From NCBI GenBank assembly GCA_015063285.1, contig SUST01000004.1, positions 62,001-126,000 on the forward strand: 64,000 nucleotides of DNA. Direction: 5' to 3'. Positions 4,371-52,421 of the stretch are shown here, piece by piece. Below the pieces are notes generated by a model, which did not search any database, had not been told where the DNA came from, and saw nothing but the letters and a program-made list of their open reading frames with translations. This stretch comes from Thermoplasmata archaeon (lineage in GTDB: Archaea; Thermoplasmatota; Thermoplasmata; Methanomassiliicoccales; Methanomethylophilaceae). The translations under genes were made by a program, and so were the position numbers. How positions within the stretch are numbered: position 1 is the first letter of the stretch; the number at the start of each line of letters is the position of its first letter.

Positions 4371-4375
4371 TCTAT

Positions 4376-4404
4376 CCGGGGCCAGTCCCCGGTATTCTTT
4401 TTAT
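4376..4404 (+). terminator. Hairpin terminator after mtnP
   Basis: Stem CCGGGG/CCCCGG with a five-base loop, followed by a T-rich run ('tattctttttatt'). It lies six bases after the mtnP stop. Confidence 0.75.
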
Positions 4405-4468
4405 TAATCTACTTTTTTCGAATTGACTATCAAATCTGTTAATTACCTGTTATAAAATAACCGCAATT

Positions 4469-5884
4469 ATGGCAGAGAAGAAGTCCAAAGGACAGAAACT
4501 TTCCGAAGAATTGCTTTACAACCCAAAGAACATCGGGGAGAGGGACAACAAGTTCCTCGAAGAGGCCAACAAGTTCTGTGAGGGCTACAAGAAGTTCCTC
4601 ATGAACAAGACCGAGCGCGAGGCAGTCGCATACGCGATCCCCATTCTGAAGAAGCACAAGTATTCGGAGTACGTTCCCGGCAAGAAATACAAGGCCGGCG
4701 ACAAATTCTACATGTGCAACCGCGGTAAGAATCTGATCATGTGCACGAAGGGAAAGAAACCCATCTCTGATGGTATCCGTGTTTCCGTCGCTCATGTGGA
4801 CAGTCCGAGACTGGACTTCAAGCCCCACCCGCTCTTTGAAGAGGGCGAGATGGTATACTTCAAAACCCACTATTACGGAGGAATTAAGAAGTATCAATGG
4901 ACCACCATCCCTCTTTCCATCCGCGGAGTCGTCATGCTCAAGGACGGTACCAAGGTCGACATCAATGTCGGTGAGGACGAGTCCGAACCAGCATTCCTGA
5001 TCACCGATCTCCTCGTCCACCTGGCAAGGGACCAGATGCAGAAGACCGCATCCAAGGTCGTTGAAGGGGAGCAGCTCAACATCCTCATCGGATCCTGGCC
5101 GTTCGATGACGAGAAGGTATCTCAGAGATGCAAGCTAGCCATCATGCAGATACTCAATGAGAAATACGGAATCACCGAGGGAGACTTCGAGGCAGCTGAG
5201 CTATGCGCTGTCCCTGCATTCAAGCCCAGGGATATGGGATTCGACAGGTCGCTCATAGCGGCATACGGGCAGGATGACAGTTCATGTGCATACGCCCAGT
5301 TCATGGCCGAGCTCGACACCAAGAACCCCGAGTATACGACCATGACCATCTTCGCTGACAAGGAGGAGACTGGATCGGACGGAGTGACCGGAATGGCATC
5401 CTACTTCTTCAGGGACTTCGTCGAGGATCTGGCCCAGGCAGAGGGCTGTGAGGTCAGACATGTCATGAGGAACTCCTTCTGTCTCTCAGCAGACGTCGGA
5501 GCAGGATACGATCCCGCCTGGCCGGAGGTGTTCGAGAGGAACAACTGTGCCTTCATGAACTACGGTCCGATAATCGCCAAGTATGACGGAGCCGGAGGAA
5601 AGTACAGCACCAACGATGCATCTGCGGAACTGGTGAACTATCTACACAGGATCCTGAGGGATGCCGATGTCTGCTGGCAGATGGGAGAGCTCGGAAAGAT
5701 CGATGTCGGAGGCGGAGGAACCATCGCATCCTACATCTCGTTGAACAACATCGACACCATCGATATCGGTGTGCCGGTGCTGTCCATGCATGCTCCCGTA
5801 GAGGTCGTCGCCAAGGCAGACGAGTACATGCTGTACAAGGCTATCTACGCAGTCTACAACAGCAAGCTCCCTAAGGAGATCTGA
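4469..5884 (+). CDS. M18-family aspartyl aminopeptidase
   Basis: A 471-residue metallo-aminopeptidase that removes N-terminal (usually acidic) residues from peptides in the cytoplasm. The binuclear zinc ligands of family M18 can be seen: 'VAHVDSPRLD' (His), 'FADKEETGSDG' (catalytic Glu-Glu), 'SADVGAGYD' (Asp) and 'LSMHAPVEVV' near the C-terminus (His). Length fits the family. It stands alone between two terminators. Distinguishing aspartyl from general aminopeptidase activity is not possible from sequence alone. Confidence 0.9.
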   Translation: MAEKKSKGQKLSEELLYNPKNIGERDNKFLEEANKFCEGYKKFLMNKTEREAVAYAIPILKKHKYSEYVPGKKYKAGDKFYMCNRGKNLIMCTKGKKPISDGIRVSVAHVDSPRLDFKPHPLFEEGEMVYFKTHYYGGIKKYQWTTIPLSIRGVVMLKDGTKVDINVGEDESEPAFLITDLLVHLARDQMQKTASKVVEGEQLNILIGSWPFDDEKVSQRCKLAIMQILNEKYGITEGDFEAAELCAVPAFKPRDMGFDRSLIAAYGQDDSSCAYAQFMAELDTKNPEYTTMTIFADKEETGSDGVTGMASYFFRDFVEDLAQAEGCEVRHVMRNSFCLSADVGAGYDPAWPEVFERNNCAFMNYGPIIAKYDGAGGKYSTNDASAELVNYLHRILRDADVCWQMGELGKIDVGGGGTIASYISLNNIDTIDIGVPVLSMHAPVEVVAKADEYMLYKAIYAVYNSKLPKEI

Positions 5885-33673: not shown

Positions 33674-35968
33674 TCACGGTTGTGAGTTCAATATCGCTTT
33701 CACGATATTGTTTGCTTCGTCTACGGTATAGTTGGGATCATCGATCCTTAGGCATATGTCGACGTAGCATCCGTCCTTCATTCCTACGTAGTAGATCATC
33801 CATGCCATAAACGCACCGTCTCTGTGACGGTCAGACAGATATCCGTATGCTTCGTCAAAGCCTGCAATATCCATGACGTAACATTTCGTATCAGTGCCTT
33901 CGTATCCTGCCACCTTCTCTTCAAACGTCGATTTCTGAATTGCGAAGTTAGTGTATGCGTCTTTCTTTGAGCTGAAGTTGATATGACGGTCACCCGATCC
34001 GCTGTCTGCCGCCTTAATGCTGGCGAACTCCTCGTCAGCCCCAAGCAGCATTGTGTAAGGTGCGCCCGCATATTTGTCAAGCATAGAGGTGTTGACAGAA
34101 TTCGCCCAGGCTTTTGCATCCACATCAGAGATGGGAGGATAGGCTGAATAGATCAGTTTCTCGATGTCATCCAGCGTCAAGTTCGGCCTTTTGACAATCT
34201 GGAGGTCGACAAGGCACTCATCGATGTATCCGACGTATTTCATGCTTCCAAGTACATATTGGGCATCGGGGTTGGAATTGACATAATAACCGAATCCTTC
34301 AGTGAGAGCATTGGAGAATGGAATTTCTTGGCAGATTCCTGTGGTTCTTGCCTCTGTACCGATTTTGGCCTCATATGTGGCTTTCAACTCGTTAAACTTG
34401 GCTATAGGATCCTTTTCCAGAGAGTATTTGATGAAGTATGTCTCACCATCAGATACAACTTTAGCCACCTGGGAGTTGTTATCCTCTGACAACTTGTACG
34501 GTGTGTAGGAATAATCAATCATCGGATCGGGGTTGGAATTGAGATCATCCTTCATCAGATCCCAGAATCTTTCAGCCAGTCCGATGACATCGATGTCCGA
34601 CTCTATATCGTCATCTCCGGACCCGCCTTTCGCATCCATGTAGTTCTGGTAGGTACAGATTGTCGTCATGTCCTGAACTACGTTGAAGTCTTGGTCCGGA
34701 ACAGTGCTGTTCAGATAGTTCAGATACTTGTCCACCATTGTTTGGAAGTAGTTATGTGCTTCACTCATGGAGACGATATCTGGGTAGAACATTGCTGCAA
34801 CATACATTACCCTACACGGTGTGGGTATTGACAGATTCAGATAGAACATGTTCTCGAATTCGCTGGATTTCTTCAAAATGTCTATTCTGCTGTCTTCCCA
34901 CAGTTTGATCGGGTCCACGTTGATACAGTCGCATGTACGACAATTCATGATGTAGTCGATCTTATCGTTGTAGATCGTTATTGCCTCCACATCGTTCAAT
35001 GGATTGGATCCATTTCCAGGTAGATTGGCCACATCGATTCCTCCTGCCTGAAGTCCCATCTTGGTATATTGGGAATCATGCTGGGAGATATATTTCCACA
35101 TGCACAGTGCGATGAATTTGGTGCGTTCATCATCGCCGAGTTTCTCAAGTTTGTCATTCAAGTCTACTATGGCTTTACGACTGTCGTTGGCATAATTCAG
35201 TGCTTTCTTGGAGTAATCTGGGCCTAAGAGGAATCCCAGAAGCATGGTGGCATCAATTGAGTGCACAGGGTCCGTACATCTGATGTAGATGACAGGTATA
35301 CCTGTGGTTTCGATGTCATCCTTGTAATCAGACAAAGCTGCATCGTTGTAGGCCAGAATTGCACCGATACCCTCTCCTTTCTTATAAAGTTCTGAATCAA
35401 GGTCCTTTATCGCTTCCCATTCGACCTGAGTTATCATCCTGGGGGATGTTCCCAGGCATCTGGTGAAACCGTTGTTGTCAGCCTTGTAGAATGTCACTCC
35501 GTACGAGTCTCTGTTGGCTATGTATCCGATGACTTTCTCATCACCATCGAACATGAATGTGAGCTGGAGCATATCGGGGTTGATAGTTATGACATTCTCC
35601 AGAGGATAGTTGACCTCGACGATGTTCGTTTTTCCGACATCATAGACATATTGGTCTATGAAACGCACCTTTGTTTTTTCACCGTTGATGAGCTTCTTTA
35701 CAATTTCCGCATCCGTTGCGGTTATGGCTCCATCCCCGTCTGCGTCTGCAAATGGGTGCTCGGATACCTTCGTCCCGATCAGTTGGTTGATGAGATCCAC
35801 ATCTTTCTGGTCTATGGTGTAATCCTCGTTGGCGTTACCATAGACCGGAAGGTTGGTCATTTTAAGATTCTCGTAATTGCTGCTGCCAGATCCCAGGAAA
35901 AGGATTGCACCGCCTGCAGCTATCGCTACGATTGCCACTACAGAGATTATGACTATGTTCTTCTGCAC
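33674..35968 (-). CDS. Dockerin-bearing substrate-binding protein, copy 1
   Basis: 764 residues. N-terminal membrane anchor (5-26), then a dockerin-like pair of calcium loops (about 43-96; the second is 'DADGDGAITATDAEIV'), then a BtuF/FepB-type periplasmic binding fold (about 100-435). The C-terminal 280 residues hold two related repeats of about 120 residues, each ending 'YVGYIDECLVDL' or 'YVGMKDGCYVDI'. The Cys cluster 'NCRTCDC' (about 342-348) may bind metal or form disulfides. GTG start with an 'aaggtga' ribosome site. Second gene after its paralogue, nine bases away. Likely captures a metal chelate for the FecCD transporter. Confidence 0.8.
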   Translation of the reverse strand: MQKNIVIISVVAIVAIAAGGAILFLGSGSSNYENLKMTNLPVYGNANEDYTIDQKDVDLINQLIGTKVSEHPFADADGDGAITATDAEIVKKLINGEKTKVRFIDQYVYDVGKTNIVEVNYPLENVITINPDMLQLTFMFDGDEKVIGYIANRDSYGVTFYKADNNGFTRCLGTSPRMITQVEWEAIKDLDSELYKKGEGIGAILAYNDAALSDYKDDIETTGIPVIYIRCTDPVHSIDATMLLGFLLGPDYSKKALNYANDSRKAIVDLNDKLEKLGDDERTKFIALCMWKYISQHDSQYTKMGLQAGGIDVANLPGNGSNPLNDVEAITIYNDKIDYIMNCRTCDCINVDPIKLWEDSRIDILKKSSEFENMFYLNLSIPTPCRVMYVAAMFYPDIVSMSEAHNYFQTMVDKYLNYLNSTVPDQDFNVVQDMTTICTYQNYMDAKGGSGDDDIESDIDVIGLAERFWDLMKDDLNSNPDPMIDYSYTPYKLSEDNNSQVAKVVSDGETYFIKYSLEKDPIAKFNELKATYEAKIGTEARTTGICQEIPFSNALTEGFGYYVNSNPDAQYVLGSMKYVGYIDECLVDLQIVKRPNLTLDDIEKLIYSAYPPISDVDAKAWANSVNTSMLDKYAGAPYTMLLGADEEFASIKAADSGSGDRHINFSSKKDAYTNFAIQKSTFEEKVAGYEGTDTKCYVMDIAGFDEAYGYLSDRHRDGAFMAWMIYYVGMKDGCYVDICLRIDDPNYTVDEANNIVKAILNSQP

Positions 35969-35977
35969 TCAATCACC

Positions 35978-38248
35978 TTAACTCACTGAAGATATTGCTT
36001 TAGCAATGGCGTTCACTATTTCGGTGGTGTTGGTATCATCGAATGCGGTGCTGTCGCTTCTCAGGTAGACTGTTGCGAAGCATCCGTCCTGATATCCGAC
36101 GAATTTGAGCATCCAGAAGCCACCTTGTCTGACGGCTTGAGCATAGAATCCGTATCCATCTTCCAGGTTATTCTTCTCAACAGCCATTGCGATTCCGCCC
36201 ATGTAGTCTTGACCGATCTTATCGATGTATTCTTGTTTGGCGGCCATATAGCCGATGAGGGCATCGGATCTGTTGTCAAAGGTGATGTAATAGTCTTTTC
36301 CATCGTCATTCTTGCTGCATTGGATTTTAGCGAATTCGGCTGTGCTGTCCTCTGTTATCGAGTAAGGCGAGAACTTCATGTTGTTGAGGAGGCTGAGATC
36401 GAATTTCTTGGCAATCTCCAAAGCAGACTTTTCGCCGTCAGTTCCCCACAGGGCATCAACTATGTTCTCAAGATCATCATCGGTCAGAAGCGGTTTCTTA
36501 CCGAGATGGATTTCAATCAGACATTCCTTGATGTATCCGACATAGAACATGGAACCGATACTGTCCTCGTTCTCTGTGTTGACATAATAGCCGATTCCAT
36601 CAGTAAGTCCGGTCGGCAGATCGATTTCGATGTATGTGCCTCCCATGGAGGACTGTTTACCGATCTTATCCTCATATTCCGCTTTCTTTTTCTGGAATTC
36701 CGGTACAGGGTTCTTGTACAGTTTTACATCCAAGTAGTATTTGCCGGATGTGGGCAGGGCCTGTGCATGCTGGTCGTCACCGCTAGTAGTATACGGTACG
36801 CCCTGATAATCGGAAAGGTCCATCTCATTGAGGAAGTGTTTTACGACATTCAGAGAATTGATGTCAGAGATGACCTTCTCTCCTGGATCGGGATCCTTGG
36901 AATCCTCGTAATCCTTGTAGGTGATGATAGTGAACATATCTTCTTTGATGTCAAAATCTCCATCACTAACTGTTTTGTCCAGATATGACATGTATCTGTC
37001 AACGGTATTCTGGAGATAGCTGTCCGCATCTGCTCTTGAGACTATATCTGGATAGAAAATCGCAGCTGCATACATGACTCTGCACGGAACGGGCATGGAC
37101 ATGTTGATCCACACCATGTCTTTGAAGTGGGTGCTCATCTCCAGGAATCTCATATCAGTCAATTCCCATAAGTCGACAGGGTTTACCCACGCGCAATCCT
37201 GTGTTGAACAGTTGAGCATGCAATCGATCTTGTCATTGTACTTTGTGATAGCTTCAACATCCTGCAGCTTCTGTGAGGATGTGCCTTCCAATCCGCTCTC
37301 TTCGATACCTCCTGCCTGGATACCCATGTTTGTGTACTGTGACTGGTTCTCGGCAACATAGATCTTCATGGTAAGCGAAATGAAGTGTTTTCTTTCGCTA
37401 TCCGAGAGTTTGGATACTTTCTTCTGGACATTTGCTATAGTTGTACGGCAGTCATCGGAGAATGCCACGGCCTTCTTAGCATAATCGGGGCCCAGCAGGA
37501 ATCCCAGAAGCTCTGCAGCCTCAATCGAGTAAACAGGGTCTGTGCATCTCAGGTAGATTATCGGTATTCCTGCAGCTTCGATATCATCCTTGTACTCACC
37601 GAGGGCGGCATCGCTCATCACAATTATTGCGCCTATCTTGCTCCCTTTTTCTTGCAGTTCGACATCGAGGTTCTTTATCCCTTCCCAGTCGGCAGCTGCA
37701 ATGAATCTGGCCGTGGATCCGACCTGTTTGCTGACACCGTTGTGGGTCGCTTTATAGAATTCATTGGGGTAGTTGTCGATGTTGGCGACAAAACCTGCGA
37801 CCTGGTCATCTGCGTCGATGAGCATGGTCATCAAAAGCATGTCTGCATTTTGGGTTACAATATCCCTCAGGGGATAGTCCACCGTTACGTAATGGAAATT
37901 GGATTTGATCAGGTCGTACTGGTCTACAAAGGTGACTTCGGTTTTCTCCCCCTTGATCAGTTTCTCCACTATAGAGATATCTTCAGAATCAAGGATTCCA
38001 TCTCTGTTGGCATCTGCGAAGGGATGTACCGAGATCGGAGTTTTTTCTGTGATCATCGAATTGATCAGTTCTATATCTTGATCGTCAACGACATCGTCGT
38101 CGTTGGCATTCCCGAAAACGGGAAGGCTTCCTTTGACGATATCGCCTCCGCCGCCTGAATTATTGCTGTTCAGGACAAAAATGGCTGCGCCAACGATCAC
38201 TATTACCGCGACTAACGCGATTCCAATTGTTGTGACATTGGATTTCAT
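35978..38248 (-). CDS. Dockerin-bearing substrate-binding protein, copy 2
   Basis: 756 residues, paralogous along its whole length to the protein at 33674-35968. N-terminal anchor ('IGIALVAVIVIVGAAIFVL'), dockerin-like module with loops 'NANDDDVVDDQDIELI' and 'DANRDGILDSEDISIV', a BtuF/FepB-like domain and two C-terminal repeats ending 'YVGYIKECLIEI' and 'YVGYQDGCFATV'. The Cys motif here is 'NCSTQDCAW', one Cys fewer than its sister, which hints at a different ligand. Divergent from the permease gene at 38364. The stop is TAA. Confidence 0.8.
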   Translation of the reverse strand: MKSNVTTIGIALVAVIVIVGAAIFVLNSNNSGGGGDIVKGSLPVFGNANDDDVVDDQDIELINSMITEKTPISVHPFADANRDGILDSEDISIVEKLIKGEKTEVTFVDQYDLIKSNFHYVTVDYPLRDIVTQNADMLLMTMLIDADDQVAGFVANIDNYPNEFYKATHNGVSKQVGSTARFIAAADWEGIKNLDVELQEKGSKIGAIIVMSDAALGEYKDDIEAAGIPIIYLRCTDPVYSIEAAELLGFLLGPDYAKKAVAFSDDCRTTIANVQKKVSKLSDSERKHFISLTMKIYVAENQSQYTNMGIQAGGIEESGLEGTSSQKLQDVEAITKYNDKIDCMLNCSTQDCAWVNPVDLWELTDMRFLEMSTHFKDMVWINMSMPVPCRVMYAAAIFYPDIVSRADADSYLQNTVDRYMSYLDKTVSDGDFDIKEDMFTIITYKDYEDSKDPDPGEKVISDINSLNVVKHFLNEMDLSDYQGVPYTTSGDDQHAQALPTSGKYYLDVKLYKNPVPEFQKKKAEYEDKIGKQSSMGGTYIEIDLPTGLTDGIGYYVNTENEDSIGSMFYVGYIKECLIEIHLGKKPLLTDDDLENIVDALWGTDGEKSALEIAKKFDLSLLNNMKFSPYSITEDSTAEFAKIQCSKNDDGKDYYITFDNRSDALIGYMAAKQEYIDKIGQDYMGGIAMAVEKNNLEDGYGFYAQAVRQGGFWMLKFVGYQDGCFATVYLRSDSTAFDDTNTTEIVNAIAKAISSVS

Positions 38249-38348
38249 GCTATCAATTGAGTTTGGTTAGTCTCTAATAATATAAAAGTCGGAAGTATCG
38301 TCCATCGGAAGATGTGAAAAAGGTTATTCATAAATATTCAAAAGGCTC

Positions 38349-38363
38349 TGGATGTGACATCCA
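38349..38363. promoter_or_regulatory. TGGAT-N5-ATCCA inverted repeat before the first permease gene
   Basis: TGGAT-GTGAC-ATCCA lies immediately before ATG 38364. The same arms and spacing occur at 41402-41416, before the last gene of this strand's cluster. Candidate operator of the uptake system. Confidence 0.5.
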
Positions 38364-39446
38364 ATGGTCGAAGATATCAACGAAGCCAGGAAGGAAGAAT
38401 ATCGCTCTTCCATTTCAAGAAAAATCACGTTCTTGGTGGTATGTTTTGCTATACTGTTAGTAACGACTATTGTGTCATGTTCTGTCGGGACAGGTTATGA
38501 ATTCGGAAAAACAGCGCAAGTAATTTGGGACCATATCACAGGCGTTACGTACCCCGTAAGGAGTCCAGACTGGTGGGCGGATTACTATATCTTCAACAAT
38601 GTCATGCCCGGTGTAATAATGGCCCTCGTGGCCGGAGCGGGATTGGCCTTGGCCGGTACCGTCATGCAGAGTATGATGGAGAATCCTTTGGCCGATGCAT
38701 ACACGACCGGTATCTCTTCGGGAGCTTGTTTGGGTGCAGTCGTTGCAATCATTATGGGCTATTCATACTCCACCATAGTTGCTGGTGCAGGAATAGTGAT
38801 AAACGCTTTCATAGGGTCGCTGATTCCCGCCGTTATAATCATTCTGATGATCAGATATGTGGGCAATTCTCCCTCAACGATTATTTTGATAGGAACGGCG
38901 TTGACGTTCTTCTTCAATTCGATGGTCACTTTGATTATGATGACGTCGAGTGCAGAGAGTCTTCAGGATGCATACATATGGCAAGTGGGCAGCGTTACTA
39001 ACGCTTCCTGGTCAGATATGCCTTTGATGATTGTGATGTGTATAGCCTCGGCAGTACTCGTACAGATATCATCGAACAAGCTTAACATAATGGCATTGGG
39101 TGAGAAGAGCGCAAAGAGTCTGGGACTGGACGTTGTTCAGTTCAGGATGCTTTGCATTATTCTGACATCTGTTTTGATCGCATCTATCATCTCGTTCACA
39201 GGAGTCATAGGTTTCATCGGTCTTGTCGCTCCTCATATCACACGTTTCCTGGTGGGAGGGGATAACAGATTCGTCGTTCCAGGATCGATAATAATGGGTT
39301 CGACGATTCTCGTGGTAGCCGATCTGATATCGCGCATGCTGATGACATTCGGCAACATCCCTCTGGGAGTCGTAATGTCTTTCATCGGAGCTCCCGTATT
39401 TCTGTACCTTATCATCAGGCGCAGATCTGAAAGGGAGGTATTCTGA
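38364..39446 (+). CDS. FecCD-family ABC transporter permease 1
   Basis: 360 residues, about ten membrane helices, of the BtuC/FecCD family that moves cobalamin, haem and iron-siderophore. The family's 'MQSMMENPLADAYTTGISSGACLGA' region, 'GEKSAKSLGLDVVQFR' (contact with the ATPase) and 'GFIGLVAPHITRFLVGGDNR' are present. It overlaps the next permease by one base (TGATG). Probably forms a heterodimer with the 39446-40495 product. Confidence 0.92.
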   Translation: MVEDINEARKEEYRSSISRKITFLVVCFAILLVTTIVSCSVGTGYEFGKTAQVIWDHITGVTYPVRSPDWWADYYIFNNVMPGVIMALVAGAGLALAGTVMQSMMENPLADAYTTGISSGACLGAVVAIIMGYSYSTIVAGAGIVINAFIGSLIPAVIIILMIRYVGNSPSTIILIGTALTFFFNSMVTLIMMTSSAESLQDAYIWQVGSVTNASWSDMPLMIVMCIASAVLVQISSNKLNIMALGEKSAKSLGLDVVQFRMLCIILTSVLIASIISFTGVIGFIGLVAPHITRFLVGGDNRFVVPGSIIMGSTILVVADLISRMLMTFGNIPLGVVMSFIGAPVFLYLIIRRRSEREVF

Positions 39447-40495
39447 TGGGAAAGGAGGACTACAAGCGTGCAGTCCAAAAGAAATGGCTTTTCATTATCC
39501 TGTGCGCGGTGGCTACGTTGGTGGCCTTGGTGTTCTCACTCTCAATAGGTCTTTACGACATCAGTTTCGCAGATTGCTATAGGGTGCTGATAGAGCATTT
39601 AACGGGGAACATCACCAATCCCTATGAGGACGATATCGTCATCAATACCAGGCTCCCGATTTCGGTATTTGCGGTCATTGTAGGCGCTGTGCTTGCCTTG
39701 GGCGGAGCTGTGATGCAGTCTATGCTCAGGAATCCTCTTGCCGACCCTTATACGATGGGAGTATCGTCCGGAGCTTTGCTGGGCGCATCTCTTGCCATCA
39801 TCCTTGGAGAATCAATTATGCCGTTCTTCAGCGATAAATGGGTGACCATTGTTATGGCATTCCTATTCTCGCTGATACCGGTCACAGTCATTTTGATGGT
39901 TTCGACAAAACGTAAGGTTACTGCGACCAAAGTGATACTTATCGGAATAGCGATGATGTACATCTTTTCAGCCATCGTCCAGCTCATAATGATTACCTCT
40001 TCAGAAGAGACTCTGGCCGAGATCTATTCCTGGAGGGTAGGTACCCTAACTCTGACGGAATGGGATACAATCCCCATCCCTCTCGCAATCAGTCTCGTTT
40101 GCGGGATCATAATCATGTATCATTACAGACGCATCAACGTCATGATGGCTGGAGCAAATTCGGCACACTCTATGGGTGTGGATCCTAACAGGACTCTGCT
40201 GGTCGAGACAACACTGGTTTCGCTGATGACAGCAGCAGTCGTCAGTTTCACAGGTACGATCGGATTCGTAGGACTTGTGGGACCTCACATCGCTAGGCTT
40301 TTCGTGGGATCCGAATCAAAACATCTTCTTCCCGCTTCCGCAGTTTTCGGAGGATTGTTCCTTCTGTTGGCCAATTGCATCGCCAGGGTTTCAGGAGAAT
40401 ACGGTCTGCCCGTGGGAGTGGTCAGTGCGGTCATAGGTTGTCCGCTTTTCATATTCATACTGGTCAAGATGCGCAGGAAGAGCGCGTGGAATTGA
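39446..40495 (+). CDS. FecCD-family ABC transporter permease 2
   Basis: 349 residues, same fold as its neighbour: 'MQSMLRNPLADPYTMGVSSGALLGA' region, 'GANSAHSMGVDPNRT' coupling helix and 'GFVGLVGPHIARLFVGSESK'. About ten membrane helices. The next gene, the ATPase, starts nine bases after its stop. Confidence 0.92.
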   Translation: MGKEDYKRAVQKKWLFIILCAVATLVALVFSLSIGLYDISFADCYRVLIEHLTGNITNPYEDDIVINTRLPISVFAVIVGAVLALGGAVMQSMLRNPLADPYTMGVSSGALLGASLAIILGESIMPFFSDKWVTIVMAFLFSLIPVTVILMVSTKRKVTATKVILIGIAMMYIFSAIVQLIMITSSEETLAEIYSWRVGTLTLTEWDTIPIPLAISLVCGIIIMYHYRRINVMMAGANSAHSMGVDPNRTLLVETTLVSLMTAAVVSFTGTIGFVGLVGPHIARLFVGSESKHLLPASAVFGGLFLLLANCIARVSGEYGLPVGVVSAVIGCPLFIFILVKMRRKSAWN

Positions 40496-40504
40496 GGTGT
40501 TAGA

Positions 40505-41329
40505 ATGAGGTTAATTATCGACGGAATTGAATTCGGATACTCCAGTGTCCCTGTCCTCAAGGATATCACATTGGATGCTAACGGGCCCCAGCTATTATCC
40601 ATAATCGGGCCCAACGGAGTCGGTAAATCTACTTTGATACACTGCATCAACAGGATTCTTTCTCCAAACAAAGGAACCGTTATGATTGACGGGGACAATG
40701 TAAATGATGTTTCATTGAAGGACCTGGCTAAAAAAGTAGGTTATGTTCCTTATTCCGCTAATGATACTTTCCCATTGTCTGTCGTCGATACGGTCTTAAT
40801 GGGTCGTCACCCTCACGCTACGTACAAGTCTCTTGATAAGGATCTAGACATAGTTTATGATACGCTCAGACTTCTGGATATTGAAGATCTGGCCATGAGG
40901 AATTTCAATGAACTGTCGGCAGGACAGCATCAGAAGGTCATGCTTGCCAGAGGTCTTGTTCAGGAGCCTGAGATCCTGCTTCTGGACGAACCCACTTCCA
41001 ATCTCGATATAAAGCATCAGATGGAGGTAACTCGTATACTGAGAGGTCTTTCTCAGGAGAAGGACATCCTAGTGATCATGATAAGTCACGACCTGAACAT
41101 AGCTGCGAAGTATTCAGACACGATGATCATGCTCCACGGCGGTTCGATTTATGCCATCGGAACCCCCAGCCAGGTTATCACCAAGGAGAACATCAAAGCG
41201 GTCTACGATGTCGATTCAGAAGTGATCGAGAGCCACGGCAGGCCTCATTTGATCATGCTCGATGATGATTTCGATAATACGGAGCATAGTTTGCCCTCGG
41301 ACACTTATGCCGTCAATGAGATGAGGTAA
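40505..41329 (+). CDS. ABC transporter ATPase of the FecE/BtuD type
   Basis: 274 residues. Walker A 'GPNGVGKSTLIH', Q-loop 'GYVPYS', signature 'LSAGQHQKVMLARGL', Walker B 'ILLLDEPTSNLD' and H-loop 'VIMISHDLN' are intact. Energises the two FecCD permeases. The family's 'VLMGRHPH' after the Q-loop is typical for iron-siderophore and haem/cobalamin ATPases. The stop is TAA. Confidence 0.94.
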   Translation: MRLIIDGIEFGYSSVPVLKDITLDANGPQLLSIIGPNGVGKSTLIHCINRILSPNKGTVMIDGDNVNDVSLKDLAKKVGYVPYSANDTFPLSVVDTVLMGRHPHATYKSLDKDLDIVYDTLRLLDIEDLAMRNFNELSAGQHQKVMLARGLVQEPEILLLDEPTSNLDIKHQMEVTRILRGLSQEKDILVIMISHDLNIAAKYSDTMIMLHGGSIYAIGTPSQVITKENIKAVYDVDSEVIESHGRPHLIMLDDDFDNTEHSLPSDTYAVNEMR

Positions 41330-41401
41330 TCGGATTCTATATCCACCTATATTTAACGTACAATGGTGAATGATTAAGTACTATATTCATGATTAATCAG
41401 A

Positions 41402-41416
41402 TGGATACTTCATCCA
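41402..41416. promoter_or_regulatory. TGGAT-N5-ATCCA inverted repeat before the anchored surface protein
   Basis: TGGAT-ACTTC-ATCCA lies nine bases before ATG 41426. It matches the element at 38349-38363 in arms and spacing. A perfect TGATTAATCA palindrome lies just upstream at 41390-41399. Confidence 0.5.
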
Positions 41417-41425
41417 GTTGATATC

Positions 41426-42187
41426 ATGGAAAAGAAGACAATGACTATCATCGCCGTAGTGGCGGTTGTCGCGATTGTGGCTATCGTTGCAGCGGTTGTT
41501 CTGATGAACAACAATTCCAAAGAGTACAACGCTCAGGAATTGGCTCAGAAATTCGTAAAAGACTATGATGGTGAATTCGGAGATTTCACTATCGCAACAG
41601 GCGGATCTGCAACTGAAGCAGAAATGAATTATGTTGCTACCCAGAAGAACTGGAAAGGCGAAGACCTTTCTGGAACCAGAAGCATGAACATCAAGATTGT
41701 CACCTGCGAATCAAAGGAGAAAGCAGCACAAGAGTTTGAGAAATACATCAGTGTTGCGGATGCGCCATACAACTCTAAGAATGGAAGCACAGCAGGAAAC
41801 ACAATCTTGAACAAACTCGACAAACTCGGAATGGCTGGCGATTATGTTACAGTTCTGAATGGAACTAAGAACATTGACATTACCACCATACCGGATAACA
41901 CAACTCTCAAATCTGTCAAAGCTTCTGATTACGGAGCAGACCAGATTTATGTCCTCTATGCAGCATATCACAAGACTGATGATGCTACCAAACAGCAGTA
42001 CAGTCAGTTCTCGATGGTTCTTCTCGACGGAAAGAACATTGTAGTCATCAACCAGTCCTCTAAGGACGAGTTCAGTATGTACTACAACATTTCTATCAAT
42101 GAGAAGTCCAAAGCAAAGGAAGGAGAAGCCTTCATCACTGTTGAGGATTTCGAGAAGGAACTCATTAAGTTCGCAAAAGCATTCTAA
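41426..42187 (+). CDS. Membrane-anchored extracytoplasmic protein of the uptake cluster
   Basis: 253 residues: short basic N-terminus, one hydrophobic anchor (about 6-28), the rest outside, rich in Lys, Asn and Ser. No family recognised. The pattern of a helix 'KEKAAQEFEKYIS' and closing helix 'VEDFEKELIKFAKAF' is reminiscent of the C-terminal repeats of the two dockerin-bearing binding proteins, but this is a weak visual likeness. Position directly after the ATPase and a shared upstream inverted repeat suggest a role in ligand capture, like a hemophore. The base composition is more AT-rich than its neighbours. The stop is TAA. Confidence 0.7.
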   Translation: MEKKTMTIIAVVAVVAIVAIVAAVVLMNNNSKEYNAQELAQKFVKDYDGEFGDFTIATGGSATEAEMNYVATQKNWKGEDLSGTRSMNIKIVTCESKEKAAQEFEKYISVADAPYNSKNGSTAGNTILNKLDKLGMAGDYVTVLNGTKNIDITTIPDNTTLKSVKASDYGADQIYVLYAAYHKTDDATKQQYSQFSMVLLDGKNIVVINQSSKDEFSMYYNISINEKSKAKEGEAFITVEDFEKELIKFAKAF

Positions 42188-42201
42188 AACCATTAATTGG
42201 C

Positions 42202-42216
42202 GGGGGGTTTCCCCCC
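42202..42216. terminator. Hairpin between convergent genes
   Basis: GGGGGG-TTT-CCCCCC lies in the 32-base gap between the surface protein gene and the flavodoxin gene. On the plus strand 'cagttttt' follows a few bases later, so it may end both transcripts. Confidence 0.6.
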
Positions 42217-42219
42217 ACC

Positions 42220-42840
42220 TCAGTTTTTAGGGACAAAGCCGACAGAGTCTAACCAAGTGTAGATTTCTTGTTCTGAAAATCCGCTTGGGAATGAGGCACT
42301 TTTTTCCATGTGTGCATTTGGTTCAGCAGTTGTAATTCTGTTTAAAGCACCTGCAATTCCGGCGCTCCAAGATGTACAAAATGGTGCGATATTAAGACCG
42401 CTCAGATCATAAATGTCCAAGAAAGAATCGATTATTTTAGGTTCTTTATGGTACCATATCGGAAATCCTAGAATTACTGTCGAGTACCTTGATAAATCGA
42501 TTTTATTGCCAGCTATCGCTGGTCTGAAATTGGGGTCAGCGTTTTCTTTGCTAACACGGCTATTAGGGTCATCACGGTTAAGGTCTTCTTTTGTATACGG
42601 GATAACGGGTTCAATACGGTAAATATCGCATCCAAGATAGTCTTGAATCTTTTTAGCAACACCATCGGTCACTTCCGTTGCGGAGAAATAGACTAGGATC
42701 ACGTTCTCATTCAGGTCTGGGAATACAGGATCTACAGGATCGTCCGAATTGTTCCCGTTCATCATTATAACTGCAGCGGCCACACATGCGACGACAGCCA
42801 CAGCAGCTATCACGATAATCATTGTCTGTTTTGTTTCCAT
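42220..42840 (-). CDS. Membrane-tethered flavodoxin
   Basis: 206 residues. N-terminal anchor (about 8-27), a linker, then a flavodoxin fold with phosphate-binding loop 'VYFSATEVTDGVAKKI', 'YSTVILGFPIWYHKEP' for the flavin ring and 'APFCTSWSAGI'. The predicted topology puts FMN outside the membrane, or the protein may be inserted the other way. It is the second gene of an operon with the CobN-type chelatase, nine bases after it. A reductive role in releasing metal from a chelate is an inference from context. Confidence 0.85.
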   Translation of the reverse strand: METKQTMIIVIAAVAVVACVAAAVIMMNGNNSDDPVDPVFPDLNENVILVYFSATEVTDGVAKKIQDYLGCDIYRIEPVIPYTKEDLNRDDPNSRVSKENADPNFRPAIAGNKIDLSRYSTVILGFPIWYHKEPKIIDSFLDIYDLSGLNIAPFCTSWSAGIAGALNRITTAEPNAHMEKSASFPSGFSEQEIYTWLDSVGFVPKN

Positions 42841-42849
42841 TTTATCACT

Positions 42850-45800
42850 TTACTGATTCCTATCTGTAACTTCCTCTATTCTCTCTTCAACATCGAGGTA
42901 AAGGTCCTTCAATTTCTGTCTATAATCGTCTTTTGCATCCCACAATCCGCGTTCTATGGCCTCTTCCAAACGGTTGAGGATGTTCATCATCGCATACGGG
43001 TTGACATCCATCATCCATTCCTGCGTGCTCTTGTCGAAGAGATACTTATCCGCAATGCCCTCGTACATCCAGTCTTCGCCTATGTCCGATGTGGCATCCC
43101 AAGCCATGGTGAATTCCGTGAGGTTCGCCATCTCGCCGGCGCCGCGGTATCCGTGCTCCTTTAGTCCGTCGATGAATTTGGGATTCAGGATCTTGCTCCT
43201 GAACACGTAACGCAGTTCCTGCTGAGTGTCCCTGAGCTTGGACCTCTTGGGGTCCGAATCGTCGCCCATGAACGACATGAAATCCTTGTTCTTGCCATAG
43301 GCCCTCACGAATGCGTTCATGCCTCCGAGATATTCGTAGACATCGTCGCAGTCCAGAAGGTCAATCTCCCTGTCAGGCATGTTCTTGACAGTGATGGACA
43401 CGCTGCTGAAGCGTCTCATGAACTCATCTTTGAGCTTTTCCCCGTAGTGGCCTTGGGAATAACCGTTGCTGCACCAATCAAGATACACGTTCGCAAGGTC
43501 CTGGACGCTATCCCAAGTGCTGTTCTCAATCGCCATGTTAACTCCGGTACCGTATCCTCCGGGAGGGGCACCGAATATCCTTACCGCGTTGCGCCTGCGA
43601 GCCTCATCTGGAGACAGTCCGGATAATATGCCCTCGACCACATCCTTCCTCAGATTGGCGGCCAAGGCATTGTCCTCATCCTTCTCGTCCAGACCGGCCA
43701 CCAGATTCACCGCCCTGTCGATGAGATCGATGAGGTTCGGGAAGGTGTCCCTGAACAATCCCGTAATGCTCACGGATACGTCCAGTCTAGGTCTTCCAAG
43801 CTCCGAAAGGGGAACTACTTCCAAGTCCACCACCTGTCCGCCTGTGCGTGCCCATATGGGCTTTACTCCCAGTAGCTACAGGATATAGGCGACGTCATCC
43901 CCTCCGGTTTTCATTATGTCCGTCGCCCAGATGACCATACCGATCTCTCTGGGGTATTCCCCTTTCTGATCCACATAGCGCTGGACCATCTGGTCCGCCA
44001 TACGTTTACCTATCTCCCAAGCGGTGCGGGTAGGGACTATGTCCGGATCCAGCGAGAAGAAATTCCTTCCCATCGGAAGGATACCTGCGCTTCCGCGTGT
44101 AGGTGCACCGGAAGGTCCGGGCACGATATGCTCCCCTCTGAGGCCGTCGGCCATATGCGAGATCTCATCAGTCATCCTCTTGATGTTGGGTACAAGCGTT
44201 CCGCAGGCGTATTCCAAGCTCCTTTTCAGTTCATCGGTCGCTTTCCCGATGTGCGATAACGTGCGCTCGAGGTCGTATCCGTCCTCCCGCATCCATTCTA
44301 GGAGGTCCATGAGCTCCCCGTCGATCCTATCGACGGCAACGGAGTTGAACTCTCCCGTAGAACATACGCCAGCAGGATCCTCCAGGGCCTTCTACATATC
44401 GACTCCCTGATTCTCTGCGAAGGCATCCCTGAGGGATCTGATGTCTCCGTTGTCTAGGCGCATCAATGAATAGAGTGCCTCGTCGAAATGGTGCCCTTCG
44501 GGTACCTTTCCGAGGATGTGGAGGTCTGATCTGATCAGTGCATCCTTCACCTCCGATATGTATTCGTGAAGCGGGATAATGTATTCCTCGAAACCTTCTG
44601 GACCGGGGTCGTTCTCATCTGTTATCCCGATGTCCTTCAGAAGATTGTTCCTCTTCGCTGTCTCGTACACATTGGCGACTGCCTGCGCCTTCCTCTGGGC
44701 GTTCGGGGTGCCCTTCAGCCTCAGCAGGTCCTGCAGTTGGACGTTTACCTCGTCTAGCTCGGGATAGGAATCCGCACGGGCCATCGTAGGAGGCATATGG
44801 CCGATCAGTACGGATTCGATCCTGCGCTTGCACTGTATTCCCTCTCCGGGGTCGTCTATAATGTAGGGGTAGATGTTAGGGATGCAGTCCAGAACAACGT
44901 CCGGATCGCATTTTGCAGATAATCCGACGTTCTTCCCGGGGAGCCATTCGATGGTCCCGTGTGTCCCCATATGGAAGATTATGTCGGTCCTGAACGTCTC
45001 CTTCAGCCAACGGTAGTATGCAAGATACTGGTGCTGTGCGAACAGGATTGGGTCGTGGATGTTCTGCTCCATCTTGTCGGCCCATCCTCTGAGCGGCTGG
45101 TATCCCACGAACACGTTGCCTTTGATGATACCTGGGACGATGATGTCATGTCTGTCGACGCATATCGATCCCGGGGGCTCTCCCCAGGCATCGATCATCT
45201 CCTTCTGATCCCATTCAGGGATGCGTATGAACTGACCTTTGTATTCCTTGTCCGGTATCAGGTCCACGGCCTTCTCTCTGAGAGCTTGTGATGACAGGTT
45301 GTCTAGATCGTTCGTGACTCCGTTCAGTATCTCATCGATCAGAGCCCTTCCGTCCGCAGGTACGTTATCGACGGTGTATCCCTCGGCCTCCAAGGTCTTC
45401 AGGATGTTAGCGACACTCTCCGGGGTGTCGAGTCCCGCGGCCCCGCCTATGTTCCCGGAATCGGGGCGGTTCTGCCACATGAGGATGGCGACCCTCCTTT
45501 CGGATACGGGTTTGGAATGGAGGGCGCCCCAGTTCTTGGCCAATTTCACAAGATGACCGATCCTCTCCGGTATCGGATGGTAGCGGGCGGTTCCGTCAGT
45601 TTTGGACTTGTAGGCTACCGGTACGCTGACGATGCACCCTTCCAGCTCAGGATAGATGACGTTCATCTGCATGTCCTTTTTGGATAGACCGATCTTATCG
45701 TCCTCGAAGTCGTGATATGCCCCTTGGACGGAGATTCCGAACACAAGGGGAACGTTCAGCTCGTTGCGGTAGAAGTTCCATTCGTCGAGACATCTGTCGT

Positions 45801-46593
45801 GCCCATGTCCGTCTATGGCCAATCTTGAAACAGATATTATGCATGATACCAACGGTTTTCCGTTCTCGGTCATGTAGTTGCGCAGAACGGAATCCACCTC
45901 ATTCGTCAGATCCTTGTTGAAACTGGAGCAGAATATGGGGATGACGTTCATGCCCTGTCTCTCGATCTCGTCAGTTATGGCGTCGATATGCTCCGTGGTG
46001 CCGTATATCCAATTGTTAGTGGGGAATACGAGGCCTAACGTCATCTTCTTTGGATCCAGAGTCTTGAGATAATCCTCTTTGGAGATTTCCGTATCCATGC
46101 CGCGATGGTAGATCCCATGAGGTCTGTGGACGATCGGAGGATCAGGGAATCTATCGCAGAATCCAAGCCTGTACATGGCCCACCATATGATCCCTCTGTC
46201 ATTTTCGGGACATCTGTCCTTCACATAGGAATACAGTTCACGATATTCCTCGTCCGTTCCTTTGAATAGAGGTCTGGCCAGAAGATTCATCTCCGGATTT
46301 CCGGAGAATACTGCAGGGAACCCCTTCACATTCTTCAGAACATCCTCGTAGCGGTCCCATTTCTTGAAACGATAGAGGTCCCCCATCCCTCTGACGTAGA
46401 TGAAATCGGCCTGTTGTGTGCGCTGAATGAGGTCATGGTAGACCAGAACATCCTCGTCGGCATCATCGGCGTAGATCCCGTAGAATTCCACATCCAAACC
46501 CAGGTCCTCTCCGAGCTTCTCGGCGGTGCTCTGGAGCTGATCGGGCTCGTTCTCCAGAATGGAGATGAATACCATGCGGAATACCCTGGGCAT
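42850..46593 (-). CDS. cobN: CobN/ChlH-type metal chelatase subunit with two in-frame amber (probable pyrrolysine) codons
   Basis: 1247 residues if TAG is read as an amino acid. TAG codons are at 44392-44394 (codon 734) and 43876-43878 (codon 906); the final stop is TAA. The frame does not shift, and family motifs lie on every segment: 'MGTHGTIEWLPGKNVG' and 'IGHMPPTMARADSYPEL' before the first TAG, 'GRNFFSLDPDIVPTRTAWEIG' and 'DIMKTGGDDVAYIL' between, 'LLGVKPIWARTGGQV' directly after the second, and 'GYRGAGEMANLTEFTMAWD' later. Total length matches CobN. No CobS/CobT or ChlI/ChlD partner is near. The homologous HmuS of Bacteroidetes acts on haem beside an HmuTUV transporter, like the arrangement here; cobalt insertion into corrinoids is the alternative. 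Confidence 0.9.
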
Positions 46594-46595
46594 CA

Positions 46596-46616
46596 GGTAG
46601 GAGATATCATCCTACC
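46596..46616. promoter_or_regulatory. Inverted repeat directly before the cobN-like gene
   Basis: Perfect seven-base arms GGTAGGA and TCCTACC around GATATCA, ending two bases before the ATG (minus strand). It lies where the transcript should begin, so a repressor bound here would block the chelatase-flavodoxin operon. Confidence 0.55.
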
Positions 46617-46739
46617 TATATTGCTTATCCTTGTTCTAGCAATATTATGCTGATAATCTGTCGAGAAGACAAGTTGTTTTAATACCGACTTATTTGTTCG
46701 AGAATAGACTTTATTATTCCGTTCGTCATTATGACCTGC

Positions 46740-47423
46740 ATGGCAAAGAACGAGATGAAGGAAAGTCTCGCAGAGAAGACAAGGATCTACATCGATGCGC
46801 ATCCCAGTGTCAAGGATTGCGTGGCCAAGGGACTGATCAACTATTCGTCCCTGGCCAGGATGATCATGAAGGATATTGATGTAGATAATGAGGAGGCTGT
46901 GATGATCGCATGCCGCAGGTATGCATCGAAGCTCAATGTCACCACGGATCACGAGCTCAACATCCTCAAGGTCCTGAAGGACAGCAGGCTGGAGATGAGA
47001 ACGAAGACCTGTATCGTCACTGCGAAGAACGATTGGTCCGTTCTCCACAAGATGGACAATCTGTTCAAGGACCTCTGGAACGAGAATTCCATCATGCAGT
47101 GCGTCCAGTCCGCCTCGGCTGTGACCATCATCGCCGACAGGATGCTCAAGGACAGGATCACCGACACCGTAGGAAGGTTCAACATCATCAAGATCAGGGA
47201 GAATCTCGTTGAGATCGCCGTGAAGTCCCCCGAGCTCATCGTGGACACAAGCGGAGTCATAGCCTATCTGATCACCAACCTCTCGGATGCGGGAATCAAC
47301 ATCGAGGAGACCGTCAGCTGCCATACCGATACGATATTCATTGTTGCGGAGAGCGACATGATCAACGCCTATTCCGTGTTGACCAAGTGCATACAGTCGG
47401 CAGAAGCTACGGCAAGGGACTGA
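46740..47423 (+). CDS. ACT-domain-like archaeal regulator
   Basis: 227 residues. The N-terminal half is helical ('KTRIYIDAHPSVKDCVAKGLINYSSLARMI'), a pattern repeated in methanogen proteins with C-terminal ACT-like domains. The C-terminal half has ACT-like 'LVEIAVKSPELIVDTSGVIAYLITNLSDAGINIEETVSC' features and 'TIFIVAESDMINAYSVL'. Probably a ligand-binding regulator of amino-acid or similar metabolism; the ligand is unknown. A TATA-like 'ctttattat' at about 46709 favours the ATG at 46740, although 46731 is also in frame. Four bases separate it from the pseudouridine synthase. Confidence 0.65.
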   Translation: MAKNEMKESLAEKTRIYIDAHPSVKDCVAKGLINYSSLARMIMKDIDVDNEEAVMIACRRYASKLNVTTDHELNILKVLKDSRLEMRTKTCIVTAKNDWSVLHKMDNLFKDLWNENSIMQCVQSASAVTIIADRMLKDRITDTVGRFNIIKIRENLVEIAVKSPELIVDTSGVIAYLITNLSDAGINIEETVSCHTDTIFIVAESDMINAYSVLTKCIQSAEATARD

Positions 47424-50634: not shown

Positions 50635-50747
50635 GTTGAGTCGACTATCAGACAACCGATAGATTCAACCATTTGCGGAAATCATTTTAATGCTTAATCG
50701 ATACGACTTTCTGTAGAGGAACGAAGAATCACCCTGGAGGATTGTTT

Positions 50748-52421
50748 TTGGACGATTTGTTGATCGCGACAGCAGTACTGACCTTGCTCGCCGGAGTGGG
50801 CGTCTTCCTCACCGCATGCATAATGCTCAGTTCCAATCTAGAGTCCCTTAGCAGCGGCAAACTCAAGAAGATGTTCGCGAAGGCATCTAAGAGCAAACTT
50901 TACGGTGTCGGTATCGGTACAGTAGGTACCGCGGCGATCCAGAGTTCCGGAGCGATGACCGTCATGGTCATCGGATTCGTCAATGCGGGAATCATGACAT
51001 TACCGCTGGCGGCCACCATCATATACGGTGCCAACATCGGTACCACCATAACCGCTCAGATAGCCGCAATTGGAATGTTCAATGACGACACATTATCCCT
51101 TTCTGTCATCTTCGCCGCTCTGGCAGGTATCGGGGCGTTCGTCATGGCATTCTCCAAAAAAGAGAAAACCAAGGTTTGGGGCGGTGTTATAGCAGGTTTC
51201 GGTCTTCTCTTCGTCGGTTTGATGATGATGGCCACATCCATGGAAGACTTCGCCAAACTCCCTGAGGTCGTAGAATTCCTTTCCAGCATCCACAACATCT
51301 TCCTCGTTCTTCTGATCGGTATCCTTTTGACAGCCTTGGTCCAGAGTTCATCGGTCGTGACCACTCTGGCGATCACAATGGTCGTTAGCGGATTGATTGA
51401 TCTCGAACAGGGTATTTATCTGACCCTGGGTTCAAACATCGGTTCATGTATAGTTGCTATCCTGGCAGGATTCTCGGGCGGAAGGAATGCCAAGCGTACC
51501 GCGGTTATCCATCTATTGTTCAACGTGTTCGGAGTGACACTATTCGTAGTAGCCGACATGTTCTTAGGAATATTCGGTATAGAATATGCAGAGATATTCC
51601 AGACCATATTCCCCGATGTGCCTTCAACGCAGCTCGCGATGTTCCATACCGTGTTCAACGTCATCACTGTGATCATAATGCTCCCGCTGACCGGATTGCT
51701 CATCAAACTGGTCATGAAGATCGTTCCCGAGAAGGAAGGGGAGAAGGAAGAGGAGTTCAAACCCAGGCTCTACTTCATCAACGAGTATATGCTCAGAACG
51801 CCCCCCATGGCCGTTCAGCAGGTAATGAAGGAGGTAGTGAACATGTCGCATATTGCCATGGACAACTACCGTACGGCATGCCACATGATACGTACCATGG
51901 ACTTCGAGGAAATGGACAAATTCTGCAATAACGAATAGGAGCTGAATTATCTGAACAAGGAGATCGCCAGATTCCTGGTCAAGCTGTCGGAAAACCAGCT
52001 TTCAGAGAGGGATCAGATCTATGTCTCCACAGTCTACCATACAATTTCTGATTTGGAGCGTATCGGGGATTATTCCAAGAATATAATGGAATATGCTCAG
52101 AAGCTCAAGGAACAAGGAAACACCTTCTCCGAGGTAGCCTTGAAGGAGACCATGGTCATGGAATCGCTGATCGAGCAGCTCTATGAGAAGATCGAGATCG
52201 CCTACACGGAGACCAACGAGGCCGCATTGGAGGCAGCATATGATATCGAAGAGAACATCGACATCATCACTGAATCCATGGCGGAGAACCATGTAAAGAG
52301 GCTCAATGAGGGCGTCTGCACATTGGATGTCGGTTCCGAATTCCTCGCAATGACGTCGGATTCCGAGAGGGTAGCCGACCATCTTATCAACATGGGAAAG
52401 GTCATCAGGCTGTATTCCTGA
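50748..52421 (+). CDS. Na+/phosphate cotransporter with PhoU-like tail and one in-frame amber (probable pyrrolysine) codon
   Basis: 557 residues if the TAG at 51936-51938 (codon 397) is read through. Residues about 1-320 are the Na/Pi-IIb type carrier with the two 'QSS' repeats 'AAIQSSGAMTVMVIG' and 'ALVQSSSVVTTLAIT'. The tail is PhoU-like and helical. The TAG falls inside that tail, between 'MDFEEMDKFCNNE' and 'ELNYLNKEIARFLVKLS', and the frame goes on to a TGA at 52421 with the PhoU-type 'SDLERIGDYSKNI' and 'SDSERVADHLINMG'. TTG at 50748 has 'ggagg' seven bases upstream, so it is preferred to TTG 50742. Confidence 0.88.

Follow-up and report, generated by a model that had tools for sequence, protein, structure and literature searches.

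A predicted pyrrolysine-containing CobN-type chelatase beside a putative metal-chelate importer in a Methanomassiliicoccales archaeon

We describe a gene cluster at positions 33674-46593 of a 64,000-nucleotide stretch of DNA (hereafter the window) from a Thermoplasmata archaeon of the family Methanomethylophilaceae (assembly GCA_015063285.1, contig SUST01000004.1, positions 62,001 to 126,000), in which the genes of a putative metal-chelate importer stand next to a gene for a CobN-type class I chelatase carrying two in-frame amber codons. The reading that we tentatively favour is that of a chelate or tetrapyrrole importer of the FecCD/BtuCD type, joined by an accessory CobN class I chelatase that would work with ChlI/ChlD on the imported tetrapyrrole.

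All eight genes named in a first-pass annotation of this DNA (two binding proteins, two FecCD permeases, an ATPase, an anchored protein, a flavodoxin and CobN) are present where it had positioned them, as confirmed by coordinates and Pfam matches (Table 1). Their strand arrangement gives three transcription units, running leftward from 38248 (SBP2-SBP1, the binding proteins), rightward from 38364 (permease 1, permease 2, the ATPase and the anchored protein p253) and leftward from 46593 (CobN and then, about 10 bp on, the flavodoxin). The CobN gene had been placed correctly, but its TAG codons at 734 and 906 had been overlooked; the frame of 1247 codons otherwise contains no TAA, TGA or frameshift. 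Under genetic code table 11 it becomes three open reading frames (ORFs) of 733, 144 and 327 amino acids, and standard gene calling would split the chelatase into three fragments. The genome encodes PylB, PylC and PylD above their model cut-offs and a PylS match that stays under its cut-off because a contig end truncates the gene; at the pyl genes, ARAGORN finds no tRNA, and so no tRNA-Pyl, within the 8 kb scanned. Compared with the syntenic orthologue at locus L053, the ratio of nonsynonymous to synonymous substitution (dN/dS) is 0.112 up to the first TAG, 0.121 from there to the second and 0.046 beyond it. Measured against L065, dN on the window and L053 branches is 0.192 and 0.191 between the TAGs and 0.115 and 0.101 after the second TAG; the window branch shows no rate rise and is hardly faster than that of L053.

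Amber readthrough is documented in Methanomassiliicoccales by Borrel 2014 (PMC4153887) and, from the ISO4-H5 genome, in PMC5011839. Across 120 genomes of the order, the PF02514 matches listed include nine rows interrupted by in-frame TAG, 12 codons altogether, with one TAA and no TGA, the entry "1 TGA" in several rows being taken as a terminal stop (G054:C1:567308 shows no internal TGA). The window CobN thus combines in-frame TAG, selection continuing past it and Pyl machinery in the genome, the features of a pyrrolysine protein, and readthrough, judged by that selection and by the Pyl genes, marks it as a predicted pyrrolysine-coded gene and not a pseudogene. That the gene is a decaying pseudogene cut at its TAG codons might be argued from the presence of two such codons and from the lack of any inside the gene body of the orthologues L053, L065 and L066, but this is highly improbable in view of the otherwise open frame, the low dN/dS and unchanged rate past the TAGs, the Pyl genes and the comparable TAG pattern in other CobN genes of the order. 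The alignment column of codon 906 is mostly Trp and that of codon 734 is variable, and pyrrolysine therefore looks tolerated at both positions rather than catalytic. In some archaea, according to a claim made in 2025, every TAG is reportedly read as pyrrolysine. Of the window's 47 ORFs of at least 180 amino acids, three end in TAG: CobN, an antisense ORF of 184 amino acids and a Na/Pi symporter with readthrough. The last, fused to a PhoU-like domain (50742-52421, + strand), has its in-frame TAG at codon 399, and its relatives in genomes G056 and G048 (loci L139 and L140) carry TAG at that codon too.

Several lines of comparison place the chelatase with CobN. It passes TIGR02257 (876.7 bits against a cut-off of 822.05), and a phmmer search of the PDB ranks Mycobacterium tuberculosis CobN first (620 bits), followed by a second CobN (600), ChlH (457) and HmuS (347). 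Trees were anchored on Prevotella nigrescens HmuS (whose hmu operon also encodes HmuY and a TonB receptor), two BtuS-like genes, cobalamin-operon CobN from Sinorhizobium meliloti and two haloarchaea, another CobN, two BchH and one unannotated Pseudoalteromonas gene. An 81-row tree places the window CobN in class A (33 rows), which adjoins class B (31 rows) with the second CobN of the genome. In a 25-row mixture-model tree the CobN of bacteria and haloarchaea group with classes A and B at a support of 99/99, and the HmuS and BtuS-like rows separate at 100/99; class B, with four rows in this tree, does not come out as a single clade. Approximately unbiased (AU) tests reject forcing class A together with all four HmuS/BtuS rows (p 7.4e-9) or with HmuS alone (p 2.1e-4), p values that carry the weaknesses of the model, HmuS being a long branch. 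By sequence comparison, then, the window protein is a true relative of class I chelatases of the CobN kind.

The first-pass annotation had instead modelled the locus on HmuS, with dechelation of haem or a corrinoid as its chemistry. HmuS strips iron from haem according to PMC12583661, which also supplied the markers used here: a methionine-rich insertion in domain IV, helices at both ends, the axial haem ligands Met-79/His-254, and Asp-1208/His-1209. The numbering, that of Bacteroides thetaiotaomicron HmuS, was mapped onto alignment columns by our own reckoning, and the Asp-His pair was mapped by motif onto the Prevotella protein. The domain IV insertion has 53 residues with 3 Met in the window CobN against 124 residues with 30 Met in Prevotella HmuS, and the 19-residue hydropathy maxima at the two ends are 0.28 and 0.09 against 2.76 and 3.04. 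Where HmuS has Asp-His, all 33 class A rows have Asp-Asp. Methionine does occupy the Met-79 column in 31 of the 33 class A rows (the others being one gap and one Gln; M70 in the window protein), while the column holds His in 28 of 31 class B rows and Leu in two bacterial CobN. A His at the ungapped offset of His-254, a match of alignment and not of structure, is found in the four window orthologues and in no other class A row. No HmuY, TonB receptor, DUF2162, MotA or DUF2149 gene occurs among the locus genes scanned in the window; the neighbours of Prevotella HmuS include HmuY, a TonB receptor, MotA/TolQ and DUF2149. Kinship with HmuS was rejected on the phmmer ranking, the marker residues, two trees and two AU tests. 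We accordingly regard HmuS-like dechelation as improbable: the known chemistry of HmuS, the Met and His matches and the response of Methanosarcina CobN-like proteins to the iron and sulfur source (below) speak for it, and the trees, the missing insert, terminal helices and Asp-His pair, and the ChlI/ChlD genes of the genome speak against it.

A better HmuS-like candidate than the window protein, by the residues aligned, is class C CobN (L102, L103, L104, L109 and L110), in which the Met-79 column is occupied by Met and the Asp-His pair is of the HmuS type in all five rows; each of the five loci has a FecCD gene within 1 kb.

It had also been noted at first pass that neither CobS/CobT nor ChlI/ChlD is present; for ChlI/ChlD this is true of the window alone, and the genome has two ChlI-ChlD pairs. 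In one, ChlI and ChlD lie directly upstream of the second CobN, beside an importer that has two permeases and a binding protein of the dockerin type; the other is on contig C3, with no CobN within the 12 kb fetched. Twelve of 31 close CobN relatives in the genus have a ChlI gene head-to-head within 260 bp, a hand count over CobN matches of at least 1100 residues and at least 46% identity to the window protein, with shorter or more distant matches excluded. At L059, CobN, ChlI and ChlD follow in a row on one strand. The outcome named beforehand as contrary to the HmuS model, grouping with cobalt-inserting CobN together with a co-occurring ChlI-like ATPase, was thus largely found, with cobalt insertion itself as the part that stays putative. 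The ChlD of the second chelatase cluster of this genome (L003:7557-9437, + strand) has two in-frame TAG codons, at 310 and 315, so that CobN and a ChlD would both require amber readthrough.

The class II chelatases CbiK and CfbA insert cobalt and nickel, respectively. Contig C28 encodes a CbiK-type sirohydrochlorin cobaltochelatase beside CbiC, CbiH, CbiF and CbiL, and contig C18 encodes two CfbA with CfbC, CfbE and an F430 reductive cyclase subunit (CbiK, CbiC and CfbC fall under curated cut-offs, yet these are their best models). The two CfbA-type nickelochelatase genes are double-domain and stand on both sides of cfbC (G000:C18; L136:2654-3448 and 4292-5131). CbiK and CfbA cover cobalt and nickel insertion, and therefore no biosynthetic job appears to remain for CobN, in agreement with the first-pass argument against an ordinary insertion role. 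An ordinary cobaltochelatase of de novo B12 synthesis would fit the TIGR02257 score and the grouping with cobalamin-operon CobN of S. meliloti and haloarchaea; it is nevertheless improbable, given the CbiK cluster, the lack of any recognised cob/cbi gene beside either CobN of the genome, and the lack of a PF02514 match in 52 of the 120 genomes of the order searched.

The genes at 33674-41329 likely encode an importer of a metal chelate, as homology suggests and as had been proposed for a chelate or tetrapyrrole. The features of a FecCD/BtuCD-type importer are present (FecCD permeases, an ABC ATPase and a Peripla_BP_2 binding protein), the window binding proteins being divergent. A Pfam scan of SBP1 and SBP2 gives a weak dockerin model as sole match, and the Peripla_BP_2-type domain was assigned to them because they are homologous to the binding proteins of sister loci, which match Peripla_BP_2. 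An anchor, a dockerin-like EF-hand pair and a Peripla_BP_2-type domain are common to the window proteins and most sister-locus binding proteins. The best ligand-subfamily models of the importer proteins (BtuC, haem, siderophore) all stay under cut-off, among them the NCBIfam models BtuC for permease 1 and the haem ABC ATPase PRK13548 for the ATPase (220 bits against 261). A profile of 14 such binding proteins matches solved iron-siderophore and haem-type binding proteins (including IsdE) and dockerins. The C-terminal thirds of the binding proteins consist of two tandem repeats of about 150 amino acids each, four copies in all (33674-38248), with no Pfam match and no significant match to p253. 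A single-sequence AlphaFold2 model of SBP1 had a mean predicted local distance difference test score of 33 and was not used.

The pairing of CobN with FecCD importers is recurrent in this lineage. In the loci fetched, 24 of 53 CobN-family genes have a FecCD gene within 8 kb; among the 21 genes flanked on each side by 6 kb or more, the count is 13 (class A 4/8, class B 5/7, others 4/6), against 2.2 predicted from the FecCD density of this genome; 10% of this genome lies within 8 kb of a FecCD gene. The binomial p of 1.5e-8 ignores relatedness and assumes equal FecCD density in other genomes, and the loci were drawn from CobN matches, several of them for TAG codons or closeness to the window protein, and are not random. 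Distances among CobN proteins and among their nearest permeases are correlated (24 pairs; Mantel r 0.24, p 0.005; 0.20, p 0.018, without L053). CobN genes form a large importer-linked family in this lineage. The single 1.6-Mb contig of G054 holds seven CobN-family genes (eight match rows, two of which are pieces of one gene). In G048 four share a stretch of about 50 kb (C4:174124-224194), the parts of it that were read showing ABC-2 type transporters in the intervals, and the matching region of G056 also has FecCD importers.

Set against the reading as importer plus chelatase are several observations. The Mantel correlation is weak; no ChlI/ChlD adjoins the window CobN; siderophore, haem and corrinoid are not told apart by the importer profiles; and the evidence does not tell cobalt from iron, nickel or magnesium, or insertion from removal. 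The close CobN relatives L095, L096 and L097 lack an importer in the flank covered. CobN is absent from the syntenic loci of G056 (L139) and G048 (L140), which keep argD, both binding proteins, both permeases, the ATPase, p253, the flavodoxin and the ACT-domain gene in order, with 136 bp from flavodoxin to ACT gene. In G054 the ACT gene adjoins a different, divergent CobN and another importer, and the window CobN has its orthologue at another site, with no importer beside it (L095, L100). From these arrangements the importer, p253 and flavodoxin look like an older core and CobN like an accessory that comes and goes; the units are separable. The set is not conserved as a whole: G056 and G048 have all but CobN, and G113 (L053) has the full locus minus the flavodoxin.

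These arrangements suit an iron importer that takes up a ferric chelate, reduced at the surface by the tethered flavodoxin, with CobN an unrelated passenger at an insertion hotspot. The difference in G+C content between the importer (about 0.46) and the first half of CobN (0.54), and the iron-siderophore binding proteins among the profile matches, point the same way. We hold this to be a less likely alternative: CobN stands near FecCD genes far oftener than genome FecCD density predicts, and the CobN and permease families co-diversify, if weakly.

The flavodoxin, p253 and the binding proteins have N-terminal anchors of one kind, and CobN has no membrane helix at either end. Because of the positive-inside rule, the anchored domains are expected to face outward, and the flavodoxin is probably extracytoplasmic and CobN cytoplasmic. 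A flavodoxin so placed could act as reductant of a ferric ligand at the cell surface; that it serves CobN is unlikely, and the earlier suggestion of a reductant for the CobN substrate found no support, as the predicted topology puts the two on opposite membrane sides and G113 has CobN without flavodoxin.

Under the importer-plus-chelatase reading, the two membrane-tethered binding proteins would catch a metal chelate of the siderophore, haem or corrinoid class, and the two FecCD/BtuC-type permeases with their one ATPase would import it; p253 may assist, and the anchored flavodoxin may reduce the ligand outside. The accessory CobN-type subunit, full length through two UAG codons read as pyrrolysine, would act in the cytoplasm, most likely with ChlI/ChlD encoded elsewhere in the genome, and would insert or exchange the metal of the imported tetrapyrrole, the most probable case being that of cobalt in a corrinoid-type ring taken up for salvage. 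In Methanosarcina barkeri, PMC10846266 reports two CobN-like proteins up with Fe(II)/cysteine and pyrite compared with Fe(II)/sulfide, and its authors propose iron reappropriation from haem. The response fits metal salvage in general and is the one published hint for an iron reading.

A broader and distinctly speculative idea, which we consider doubtful, is that CobN radiated into importer-coupled, substrate-specialised tetrapyrrole metallases and demetallases that swap at chromosomal hotspots, with class C HmuS-like, a Met/His pair of the window protein at the HmuS head-neck haem-ligand positions, and full length reached only with pyrrolysine. If true, metal salvage would be tied to methylamine metabolism through pyrrolysine availability. 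The question can be put to the test in this lineage, where one single-contig genome has as many as seven CobN genes, where CobN is linked to importers and to ChlI/ChlD, and where the known cobalt and nickel insertion steps are assigned here to enzymes other than CobN. Our literature search for Methanomassiliicoccales and CobN, with or without pyrrolysine, found no paper.

Table 1. Coordinates of the genes and codons discussed, numbered from the first letter of the window
Feature	Position	Strand	Evidence or remark
SBP1 binding protein, 764 aa	33674-35968	-	N-terminal anchor, dockerin-like EF-hand pair, divergent Peripla_BP_2-type domain, two C-terminal repeats
SBP2 binding protein, 756 aa	35978-38248	-	SBP1 architecture; 43% identity to SBP1
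FecCD-type permease 1	38364-39446	+	PF01032 E 1.2e-76
FecCD-type permease 2	39446-40495	+	PF01032 E 2.9e-84
Importer ABC ATPase	40505-41329	+	Pfam ABC_tran 2e-29
p253, anchored surface protein, 253 aa, of the conserved importer cassette	41426-42187	+	
Flavodoxin_4 protein with N-terminal membrane anchor	42220-42840	-	Pfam Flavodoxin_4 8e-36
CobN-type class I chelatase large subunit, 1247 codons, putative accessory gene	42850-46593	-	Pfam CobN 1142 bits
In-frame TAG, CobN codon 734, predicted pyrrolysine	44392-44394	-	alignment column variable
In-frame TAG, CobN codon 906, predicted pyrrolysine	43876-43878	-	column Trp in 31/41 aligned homologues
ACT-domain gene (ACT230), 230 aa, flanking, marks insertion hotspot	46731-47423	+	

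Directly 5' of the CobN start, an 8-bp inverted repeat with a 7-nt spacer (46594-46617) could hide the ribosome site. No known RNA element, including the cobalamin riboswitch, was found at gathering threshold in the window, L003, L041, L042 or L053, and no operator common to the CobN and importer promoters was found. The closest named-organism locus, and the sole one retrieved, is L125 of Methanomassiliicoccaceae archaeon Tb.RUG.172 (46% identity). Together with the pylBCD genes and an encoded MtaB, this match indicates Methanomassiliicoccales, and the source organism presumably inhabits a gut.

Among known systems, the importer resembles the FecCD/BtuCD-type importers of iron-siderophores, haem and B12 in its permeases, ATPase and Peripla_BP_2-type binding domain, and differs from them in that its two binding proteins are large, anchored and equipped with dockerin-like modules as well as C-terminal repeats, and in the anchored flavodoxin of its cassette. 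The chelatase shares with CobN (TIGR02257, class I with CobS/CobT or ChlI/ChlD) whole-length homology above cut-off, the GTHG and GEG motifs, the Asp-Asp pair and ChlI/ChlD in the genome; unlike known CobN, it has an importer and no cobalamin genes alongside, carries two predicted pyrrolysine codons and belongs to a genome in which de novo insertion of cobalt and nickel falls to separate class II chelatases. With HmuS/BtuS of Bacteroidota hmu operons it has in common the superfamily, a nearby importer and the Met at the Met-79 column, but it sits on a different branch without the methionine-rich insert, membrane anchors and Asp-His pair, in a locus without HmuY/HmuR, DUF2162 and DUF2149. BchH/ChlH magnesium chelatase is likewise of the same superfamily, with ChlI/ChlD-type ATPase partners in the genome, yet it scores lower (457 bits against 620 for CobN) and lies on a different branch.

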